From a bacterium (GTDB taxonomy: Bacteria; Patescibacteriota; Saccharimonadia; Saccharimonadales; UBA4665): a stretch of DNA of 36,415 nucleotides. Below, one piece after another: positions 33,198 through 36,244 of the stretch. Location: assembly GCA_021811625.1 (NCBI GenBank), contig JAJZNU010000010.1, positions 1-36,415 of the forward strand, in the 5' to 3' direction. Positions within the stretch are counted from its first letter, which is position 1; the number at the start of each line of letters is the position of its first letter. The notes under the pieces were generated by a model, which searched no databases, was not told the origin of the DNA, and saw nothing but the letters and a program-made list of their open reading frames with translations. The translations under genes were made by a program, and so were the position numbers.

Positions 33198-33206
33198 TGC
33201 TACAAT
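33198..33206 (+). promoter_or_regulatory. Extended -10 promoter of the MazG/DUF2075 cassette
   Basis: TGCTACAAT (33198-33206) ends 7 bases before ATG 33214. The upstream ATG at 33205 overlaps the -10 box itself and cannot be the start if this promoter is real. No Shine-Dalgarno is present, so initiation is likely leaderless. Confidence 0.55.
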
Positions 33207-33213
33207 GATCTCG

Positions 33214-33582
33214 ATGAAGCAAGCCGATGCCACACTTACCGACCTCCAGGCTGATATCCGAAAGTTTATTGACGACCGAGACTGGGATCAATTCCACAAT
33301 CCTAAGGATTTATCTATTTCATTGTCGCTCGAAGCTGCCGAAGTTTTAGAGCATTTCCAGTGGAAGGATCTCCAGGAAATGAATCATTACGCGAAGGAAA
33401 ATAAAAATGAGGTTGGCGAAGAGCTTGCCGACGTGTTGTACTGGGTGCTTTTGCTGGCCAACAAATTAGATATAGACCTTGTCGAGGCTTTTAAACTTAA
33501 AATGCGGAAAAACGAAAATAAGTACCCTATCGCTAAAGCCAAGGGGTCACATAAAAAGTATAACGAGCTAGGTGACGAATGA
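33214..33582 (+). CDS. MazG-like nucleotide pyrophosphohydrolase
   Basis: The 122-residue protein is an all-alpha NTP pyrophosphatase of the MazG-like/RS21-C6 class. ISLSLEAAEVLEHFQWK holds the metal-binding ExxE-type helix, and VGEELADVLYWVLLLANKL the second EExxD helix. Such enzymes hydrolyse (d)NTPs to monophosphates, removing damaged or excess nucleotides. I start at ATG 33214 because of the promoter just upstream. The stop overlaps the next ATG (ATGA) with the nuclease-helicase gene at 33579, so the two are tightly coupled. Single-domain MazG proteins next to a DUF2075 helicase suggest a joint function rather than housekeeping. Confidence 0.92.
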   Translation: MKQADATLTDLQADIRKFIDDRDWDQFHNPKDLSISLSLEAAEVLEHFQWKDLQEMNHYAKENKNEVGEELADVLYWVLLLANKLDIDLVEAFKLKMRKNENKYPIAKAKGSHKKYNELGDE

Positions 33583-35438
33583 TTGTCTACGCAGCCACTA
33601 AGAAGCAATTCCAAGATGACGTCATGACTAACGACATCGCCGGTATTGTCGCCGCTAAGTTGAAAGAAAAAACGGCCCACCGAACCGGCCATTCCGAGTT
33701 TGAGTCATGGCAGAATTCTCTCCAGTATATGGACAGAATACTTAGTGACGTTACCATACCGCTCGATTCCGGGGTGGCAATAGAATACCATATCCCCCAG
33801 TCTGCAAAGCGCATCGACTTTATCCTCACCGGTAAGGACAAAATGCGGCAAGACAGCGTCATTCTAGTGGAGCTGAAACAGTGGCAAACTGCCGAGATGA
33901 CCGACAAAGACGGTGTCGTACGTACGAGGTTTAAGCATGGTGAAGCCGAAACCTCTCACCCTTCATACCAAGCATGGTCTTACAAATGTCTTCTCGAAGA
34001 CTATAACCAAACGATCCAGGAAGACGATATCCACCTGCACCCTTGCGCGTATTTACATAACTATGAACCGGACGGGGCTATCACGAATGATTTTTATGCC
34101 GCGTATACCTCCCAGGCGCCAGTTTTCTTAAAAGAAGATGCCCTTAAGCTACGGGAATTCATCAAATCATACGTTAAATACGGCGATAGCGATGGACTGA
34201 TGTATCGGATCGACCACGGCAAGATTAGGCCTTCAAAGAATTTAGCTGATCAGTTGGCGTCGATGCTGAATAAGAGCCAAGAGTTCGTTATGATTGATGA
34301 TCAAAAAGTGGCTTACGAGACTGCTCTAAAGCTAGCCCTAAACTCATCTACAAAAACTAAGAATGTCATGATCATTGAAGGAGGTCCCGGGACCGGAAAA
34401 TCGGTTCTCGCGATCAATCTTTTAGTCGAGCTGACTAACCGAGACATGGTCGCTCGTTACGTCACCAGAAACTCAGCACCTAGAGAAGTGTATAAAGCTA
34501 AACTAACCGGATCGCTCACCAGGTCACGGATAGATAATATGTTTAGTGGTTCGGGTACGTTCCATGCTGCACAGGAGGATGAATTCGATGTCCTACTAGT
34601 CGATGAGGCCCATCGTCTCAATGAGAAGTCCGGACTTTTTAGCCATCTGGGAGAAAATCAAGTAAAAGAAATTATTAAGGCTAGCAAACTAAGCGTGTTC
34701 TTCATCGACGAAGATCAACGGGTCACCCTCAAAGATATTGGCACAAAAGATGAAATCAGATTCTGGGCAAAGAACGCCGGTACGGATGTCACTACGATGG
34801 TTCTTGAATCTCAATTTCGCTGCAACGGCTCGGATGGCTATCTTGCCTGGCTCGATAATACCCTGCAGATACGAGAAACAGCTAACCCCGCGCTTGATGG
34901 CGGAGATTATGACTTTCGGGTGATAGATGACCCCGGGCAGCTTCACGATCTCATTAAGGAAAAGAATCAAGAGAAAAATAAGGCACGGTTAGTGGCGGGC
35001 TATTGTTGGAAATGGATTAGCAAACGGGAACCGGAGCTTAAAGATATCAAAATTGGGAGCTACGAAGCTACATGGAATTTAGACACCGATGGACAAGCAT
35101 GGATTATTCAACCCAACTCCGTTAGCGAAGTGGGGTGTATACACACCTGCCAAGGCTTGGAAGTAGATTATGTCGGTGTCATTATCGGGCCCGATCTTGT
35201 TGTTCGTGATGGAGAGATTGTTACCGTACCCTCGGCTCGGGCCAGTACCGATAAATCGATCCAAGGCTGGAAGAAACAAATTATCCAAAATCCTGAAGCT
35301 ACTACGGCTCTGCTCGACGCCATCATAAAGAATACTTATAGGACCCTAATGACTCGAGGACAAAAAGGCTGTTACATTTTTTGTACAGATCCTGAGACCC
35401 AGGCCTATTTCCGGATGAAGCTAGGTATCAAACAATAG
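33579..35438 (+). CDS. PD-(D/E)XK nuclease fused to SF1-type helicase (DUF2075 class)
   Basis: The 619-residue protein has an N-terminal nuclease-like domain with D80 in KRIDFIL and E98-x-K100 in ILVELKQW, matching the PD-(D/E)XK core, then a helicase: Walker A GGPGTGKS (268-275), Walker B LLVDEAHRL (339-347), motif III FFIDEDQRV (374-382), arginine finger region ESQFRCN (410-416), HTCQGLEVDYVGV (522-534) as motif V, and YRTLMTRGQKGCYIF (587-601) as motif VI. This is the DUF2075 class. Its start overlaps the MazG-like stop, so the pair is one unit. A DNA- or RNA-processing defence or quality-control complex is an inference. The protein appears full length with all motors intact. Confidence 0.9.
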   Translation: MIVYAATKKQFQDDVMTNDIAGIVAAKLKEKTAHRTGHSEFESWQNSLQYMDRILSDVTIPLDSGVAIEYHIPQSAKRIDFILTGKDKMRQDSVILVELKQWQTAEMTDKDGVVRTRFKHGEAETSHPSYQAWSYKCLLEDYNQTIQEDDIHLHPCAYLHNYEPDGAITNDFYAAYTSQAPVFLKEDALKLREFIKSYVKYGDSDGLMYRIDHGKIRPSKNLADQLASMLNKSQEFVMIDDQKVAYETALKLALNSSTKTKNVMIIEGGPGTGKSVLAINLLVELTNRDMVARYVTRNSAPREVYKAKLTGSLTRSRIDNMFSGSGTFHAAQEDEFDVLLVDEAHRLNEKSGLFSHLGENQVKEIIKASKLSVFFIDEDQRVTLKDIGTKDEIRFWAKNAGTDVTTMVLESQFRCNGSDGYLAWLDNTLQIRETANPALDGGDYDFRVIDDPGQLHDLIKEKNQEKNKARLVAGYCWKWISKREPELKDIKIGSYEATWNLDTDGQAWIIQPNSVSEVGCIHTCQGLEVDYVGVIIGPDLVVRDGEIVTVPSARASTDKSIQGWKKQIIQNPEATTALLDAIIKNTYRTLMTRGQKGCYIFCTDPETQAYFRMKLGIKQ

Positions 35439-35736: not shown

Positions 35737-36244
35737 ACAAGCCGGCTCCAAAACAAAGTTTAAGACCGAACGTGAAGCAGAGTTACATAATGACCCCTAT
35801 AGCGAAAGTGCCGGGGTGGTGGCCATTATAAACGAAAGGGCTAACAAACAAATCGAGCGGCAGATAGACGCTCGTCAAACGCCGCGAGATCTTAACGGGC
35901 CATTATTTACCGAAATACGGAATGGTGACGGGACGGATTCTCTTTATGAAATGGTATTGCCTATCGGAGGGGACGTAGCGTCAACAAACGAGGAAGACCC
36001 TTGGTCATCCGCTGAACCAGAATTCCAAATGATTTTCTTAACAGGTACCGCCTCTGCTCGAGATTGGTTTGTCTATGAAGATGGCGGACCCCGGATGACC
36101 GTGTACTGTCACGCTTGTGAGGTAATGCGTGTTACGGACTCGGGCGGTAGATGTGTGGCAGAACCCCGAATATACCCCGCAAGGTCAAAAAGCGGTACTG
36201 GGCCATCACCCTATAGATTTCTAGGTGAACGGCACCGCAGGTAA
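35714..36244 (+). CDS. Unknown protein with uncertain start, possibly 5'-truncated
   Basis: The safe minimum is GTG 35816 (142 residues), but coding-like sequence continues upstream in frame (LAAIADAEQAGSKTKF...HNDPYSES) back to a TAA at 35696. A strong AAGGAG at 35704-35709 sits 4 bases before CTG 35714, so a rare CTG start is possible; otherwise the gene has lost its 5' part by frameshift (see 35584-35736). The product is hydrophilic, with a central beta-rich stretch (EFQMIFLTGTASARDWFVYE) and a CHAC motif (VYCHACEVMR). Family unknown. About 275 bases before it hold no intact gene. Confidence 0.5.
   Translation: MAAIADAEQAGSKTKFKTEREAELHNDPYSESAGVVAIINERANKQIERQIDARQTPRDLNGPLFTEIRNGDGTDSLYEMVLPIGGDVASTNEEDPWSSAEPEFQMIFLTGTASARDWFVYEDGGPRMTVYCHACEVMRVTDSGGRCVAEPRIYPARSKSGTGPSPYRFLGERHRR

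Follow-up and report, generated by a model that had tools for sequence, protein, structure and literature searches.

In a patescibacterial genome, a gene for a small MazG-like nucleotide pyrophosphohydrolase overlaps a gene for a protein that joins a nuclease to a helicase, which raises the question of whether the two act together and against what. The window, by which we mean the whole stretch of DNA analysed, is an entire contig of 36415 bases from an assembly of 0.64 Mb that is 74%-complete. A sequence-only reading of this locus had put the pair forward as a candidate defence system. Comparison with relatives leaves this proposal well supported, and we regard a defence role as quite likely. 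The more specific reading that the two genes together are a mobile module for defence against phages or other invading DNA, in which nuclease-helicase and MazG work as outlined below, appears moderately likely to us. As to whether MazG acts on the nucleotide pool within that defence, we see about an even chance.

Gene layout and conserved residues

Both open reading frames and their ATGA overlap, as described in the sequence-only reading, were confirmed. The upstream frame (33205-33582, + strand, 125 aa; PF12643 at 2.9e-19) encodes a predicted MazG-like (DCTPP1-type) NTP pyrophosphohydrolase, and the downstream frame (33579-35438, +; PF09848 at 3.3e-106) encodes a protein of 619 aa with a PD-(D/E)XK nuclease and an SLFN group 3 SF1 helicase. 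Stop and start codons share ATGA at 33579-33582 (+), and the same -4 overlap recurs in many relatives. The extended -10 promoter element TGCTACAAT is present as had been claimed (33198-33206, +). However, the first ATG of the MazG frame, at 33205, lies inside this element; 7 nt beyond it follows the ATG at 33214. Because of this overlap we moved the MazG start to ATG 33214, which is probably the true one and would yield a product of 122 aa, encoded at the extreme 5' end of the mRNA. At loci L010, L011, L012 and L015 a -10-like box is found at a similar distance 5' of the MazG ATG. Since a box ~7 nt upstream of the ATG, as in the window (33198-33216) and at these four loci, leaves no space for a Shine-Dalgarno sequence, the MazG mRNAs are probably leaderless in the lineage of the window. 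In the window, a CYTH-domain protein and a TauE transporter are encoded next to the pair; only 11 of 40 family genomes have the CYTH neighbour. No further defence gene could be recognised next to the pair in the window, and the contig stops ~1 kb downstream of it. An ORF of 142 aa in this terminal stretch (35816-36244) had no Pfam, PADLOC, NCBIfam or PHROG match.

The MazG protein scores 69.5 bits against PF12643, where the cut-off is 27 (3e-19), and also matches PF03819 (2e-7). Its neighbours in a phmmer search include 4qgp (6.7e-22) and DCTPP1 (1.7e-18), while none of the PADLOC models matches it. The E-x-x-E ... E-x-x-D pattern of metal ligands is present: E43 and E46 (33331-33342, +; codons 33331-33333 and 33340-33342) as well as E73 and D76 (33421-33432, +; codons 33421-33423 and 33430-33432) are invariant in 18 MazGs adjacent to helicases. 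The same holds for R25, W27, Q29, F30 and H31 in these partner MazGs, a stretch that is common to DCTPP1. The preferred substrates of DCTPP1 are dCTP and 5-methyl-dCTP (PMC4491611), and by analogy we infer that the MazG hydrolyses dCTP-like nucleotides.

The second protein matches PF09848 over the full length of the profile (positions 1-354 of 354; 356 bits against a cut-off of 24; 3e-106). This family, formerly DUF2075, is now called 'SLFN-g3_helicase' ('Schlafen group 3, DNA/RNA helicase domain'). AlphaFold2 modelled the whole protein with a pLDDT of 88 and the N-terminal nuclease domain (residues 1-210; 33579-34208, +) with a pLDDT of 94. In the model of this domain a helix (38-55) is followed by strands 65-71, 78-86 with D80, and 92-100 with E98 and K100, a further helix (128-142) and a strand (152-159). 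This is the order of the PD-(D/E)XK core, with D and ExK at the strand ends, and the nuclease that had been proposed from the letters is thus predicted to have that fold. Foldseek matches of residues 1-210 in the PDB with a probability above 0.5 were nearly all PD-(D/E)XK proteins such as Card1, Can2 and EndoMS, at weak E-values (3e-3). For the whole protein the nearest solved structures include human SLFN11, RecD2 and Dna2, with low TM-scores that result from differing domain arrangement; a sequence search of the PDB with the helicase gave nothing strong. The nuclease residues and helicase motifs are intact, as claimed before. In an alignment of 53 sequences from many phyla, whose identity to the window protein is 44-66% in the nuclease part and 52-69% overall, D80 (33816-33818, +) and E98-x-K100 in ELKQW (33870-33878, +) are invariant, as are E69 and H127. 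Within the Walker A motif GGPGTGKS (34380-34403, +) G268, G269, G271, G273 and K274 are invariant and P270, T272 and S275 are kept in at least 90% of the sequences; for motif II, DEAH (residues 342-345; 34602-34613, +), this applies to E343 and H345, and to D342 and A344, respectively.

Pairing of MazG and helicase across genomes

MazG and helicase could be neighbours by chance or for convenience within an operon, each with a function of its own. In a class sample of 295 genomes, where adjacency was defined as a MazG within 2.5 kb of a helicase and the MazG clade by E<1e-35, MazG adjoined the helicase at 39 of 45 helicase loci. A helicase neighbour was present for 39 of the 43 same-clade MazGs and for 0 of the 20 weaker ones. 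Co-occurrence in the 295 genomes (Fisher p about 1.7e-38, kinship ignored) rules out chance adjacency. Conserved adjacency had been set beforehand as a check on the pair, and it is kept across phyla. A linked MazG was found in 13 of 13 relatives in a phylum-wide sample, three of them already counted elsewhere, and at 64 of 80 cross-phylum loci, directly upstream at 51. These 80 loci come from named genomes of Patescibacteria, Thermodesulfobacteriota, Pseudomonadota, Bacteroidota, Bacillota, Acidobacteriota, Verrucomicrobiota and others; Halomonas and its relatives have MazG directly downstream of the helicase. The adjacent MazG is usually the sole strong match in its genome (30 cross-phylum genomes), and the divergences of MazG and helicase correlate across phyla with an r of 0.60, where the best of 2000 permutations reached 0.15. 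Among annotated E. coli genomes, none matched the Pseudomonas pair. Independent functions would agree with the few genomes in which MazG occurs alone or with other partners. However, this reading is hardly credible, given that adjacency in the class holds both ways at ~90%, is conserved across phyla and goes with correlated divergence of the two proteins.

Alternatively, MazG could be a control or immunity factor that hydrolyses a nucleotide which activates, or is needed by, a toxic nuclease-helicase. Such a toxin-antitoxin-like system would fire on loss or inhibition of MazG. The gene order would suit it, as MazG usually comes first and is coupled in translation to the effector, an arrangement often seen with antitoxins. 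An obligatory antitoxin is, however, difficult to reconcile with intact helicases that persist without MazG (6 of 45 loci in the class; at L009 a MazG remnant is all that is left), and we consider this explanation decidedly improbable. As those 6 class loci and 13-16 of the 80 cross-phylum loci (three of the 16 truncated by a contig end) have no linked MazG, MazG is, to judge from gene content, not strictly required by the helicase. Conversely, four clade MazGs in the class are without a helicase.

Some of these exceptional loci are worth describing. At L143, as at L009, the helicase is intact and the upstream MazG is a degraded remnant only. In Virgibacillus (L105:10081-13399) the genes after a helicase without MazG encode a NUDIX hydrolase and a PLD-SF2-DUF3427 protein, which again places a nucleotide hydrolase beside a nuclease-helicase. 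The idea that NUDIX stands in wherever MazG is missing was dropped as unproven, L105 being the sole clear case; a strict Nudix-box motif scan returned no further NUDIX cases, yet it also missed L105 itself.

Mobility, genomic surroundings and exchangeable domains

Retention of both genes in a reduced genome had been taken as a sign that they act together. The maximum-likelihood helicase tree favours a different reading, namely that a mobile cassette was acquired horizontally. In this tree the patescibacterial copies are polyphyletic: the window helicase and two relatives branch next to other CPR lineages, Thermodesulfobacteriota and Acidobacteriota, one further set lies inside a Bacillota cluster and a third at the base of the tree. 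Spread within the class is patchy, with a helicase in 44 of 295 genomes. Judged by these phylogenetic patterns, the pair is a horizontally transferred mobile cassette. Plasmid copies exist as well. One on a Hymenobacter plasmid lies beside a restriction-modification island, and the archaeal Methanosphaera plasmid pNP174 (L116) encodes a helicase 51% identical to that of the window ~8 kb from BREX-4 PglZ/BrxL genes. An IMG/VR scan with the helicase alignment yielded 33 pattern matches and 0 relatives; therefore, the helicase is not a typical phage gene. The pair is present in the Microcystis phage Mwe-JY31 (PP438423.1; L117:7657-9863), where both genes are annotated as hypothetical.

The expectation that relatives of the pair lie in defence islands held in the relatives and was not seen in the window. 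At E<1e-20 the flanks of 20 relatives (up to 4.5 kb, 119 genes) gave matches to 112 PADLOC families, compared with 8 families, mostly DinG-like and exonuclease models, in control stretches of the same contigs with 122 genes; these counts refer to families rather than genes, as a single gene may match many models. Among the flank families are AbiEi and AbiEii (four genes each), both Gabija genes, SAVED, a type I REase, a methyl-directed REase, KwaB and a dCTPase. For 19 relatives from the class, the 148 flanking genes gave matches to 64 families, including type II restriction-modification, PDC-S41, PDC-S11 and a GajB-like family.

The nuclease head of the helicase is exchangeable. In a second helicase branch of the class a GIY-YIG nuclease replaces PD-(D/E)XK, and the same MazG is still found upstream. 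Patescibacteria reshuffle MazG and helicase types, so that L019 and the window share 70% identity in MazG and 42% in the helicase. At L181:5622-6945 a same-clade MazG shares one base not with a helicase gene but with a split gene in which HNH-like motifs are discernible by eye; the first part of the split gene had no Pfam match. It is possible that this gene represents a third effector for the same MazG. At the other end of the helicase a C-terminal LexA/UmuD-like S24 domain is present in 35-37 of the 80 cross-phylum proteins (about half). These domains keep the A-A-G site, the GESM serine and the YTVK lysine of LexA/UmuD, and the fusion suggests an SOS-like self-cleavage switch. S24 fusions were seen at L036, L048, L090 and about 35 other cross-phylum loci as well as at L021, and they occur in both the PD-(D/E)XK and the GIY-YIG branch. 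The window helicase ends at residue 619 without a C-terminal S24 and is thus not of the LexA-like variant.

These observations bear on a further explanation, in which the pair would be a mobile module for stress response or DNA repair: a Dna2/SLFN11-like nuclease-helicase would handle stalled forks, MazG would clean damaged nucleotides and the LexA-like domain would tie both to the SOS response. It would agree with Dna2, RecD2 and SLFN11 being among the nearest folds and with the S24 domain and its conserved A-A-G site, Ser and Lys in about half of the cross-phylum relatives, and MazG proteins are known as house-cleaning enzymes (for example PMC3855555). However, it is conflict systems, and not core repair, that typically show a patchy distribution (here 44 of 295), transfer between phyla, flanks rich in defence genes and exchange of the nuclease. 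A repair module therefore appears unlikely to us, and we return to the reading as a defence module.

Proposed function and known systems

The pairing, the intact active sites, the transfer between phyla, the defence-rich flanks in relatives and the exchangeable nuclease can be read directly from the compared sequences. From there we infer phages as the target, DNA as the substrate of the nuclease-helicase, a dCTP-like pool as the substrate of MazG and a coupling of the two activities. In the proposed mechanism, the SF1 helicase, which has the C-terminal helicase fold of SLFN11, and its N-terminal PD-(D/E)XK domain would be loaded onto invader DNA that is replicating or single-stranded, translocate along it and cut it. 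The invader DNA would be degraded as by Nhi and Hna, possibly on SSB-coated ssDNA (PMC10732053, PMC13381803). The DCTPP1-type MazG would hydrolyse dCTP, C5-modified dCTP and possibly other dNTPs. This hydrolysis might deprive replication of its precursors, prevent invader DNA from incorporating protective modified cytosines and/or lower the level of a nucleotide that restrains the nuclease, comparable to ATP in Hna and, as proposed, nucleotides in Gabija.

If this holds true, a nucleotide-pool enzyme would be a dedicated partner in nuclease-helicase immunity, and bacterial helicases related to SLFN11, an antiviral protein of humans, would be linked to nucleotide metabolism. MazG, so far merely a predicted defence domain, would gain a concrete, testable context: DefensePredictor has it among its predicted, unvalidated defence domains, in a text that names no partner (PMC13092281). 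As the cassette is small, widespread and found in cultivable genera (Pseudomonas, Halomonas, Brevibacillus), it could be tested easily. We advance more tentatively, and with slightly less than even confidence, the idea of a widespread and undescribed immune family. It would combine an obligatory-looking dCTP-type pyrophosphohydrolase with a prokaryotic SLFN11-like helicase whose nuclease head can be exchanged (PD-(D/E)XK or GIY-YIG) and which may or may not have a LexA-like autoproteolytic switch, with nucleotide hydrolysis gating or complementing DNA degradation. Our literature search found no description of the MazG-helicase pair, and none of the DUF2075 papers that it returned was relevant by title and abstract; an earlier mention is possible, as coverage of bioinformatic surveys is incomplete.

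The nearest characterised relatives of MazG are the dCTP pyrophosphatases DCTPP1/RS21-C6, with 115 residues aligned and the metal ligands conserved, but these are eukaryotic house-cleaning enzymes without linkage to a nuclease. For the helicase, PADLOC returned only partial matches, to PDC-S41, AbiO and Nhi, and no full-length system. PDC-S41, a candidate phage-defence protein, matches the nuclease and the start of the helicase (residues 23-299, 2e-16). However, this covers only positions 20-275 of the 657 in its profile, a close member at another locus scores 7e-247, and PDC-S41 is modelled as a single-gene candidate without MazG. Human SLFN11 and SLFN14 (Schlafen group III) share the family name of PF09848 and are among the top structural matches, whereas their N-terminus is a Schlafen RNase core rather than PD-(D/E)XK or GIY-YIG. 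Nhi and AbiO likewise unite nuclease and helicase in a single protein, but the PADLOC matches (4e-12 for Nhi, 7e-13 for AbiO) are confined to the helicase core at residues of about 235-416, and Nhi has been described as a single enzyme without a MazG partner (PMC11811056). Gabija (GajAB) also employs a nuclease and an SF1 helicase with the nucleotide level as control variable, and inhibition of its nuclease by high nucleotide levels has been proposed (PMC10568477); in contrast, its OLD/TOPRIM nuclease is a separate protein and MazG is absent. Hna is a PD-(D/E)XK nuclease-helicase too, whose nuclease is held inactive by physiological ATP and triggered by phage SSB (PMC13381803), but it has an SF2 helicase and a C-terminal nuclease, encoded in one gene. 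Overall, the pair resembles nuclease-helicase immunity of the Nhi/AbiO, Hna and Gabija kind to which a MazG has been added, with a putative function in defence.
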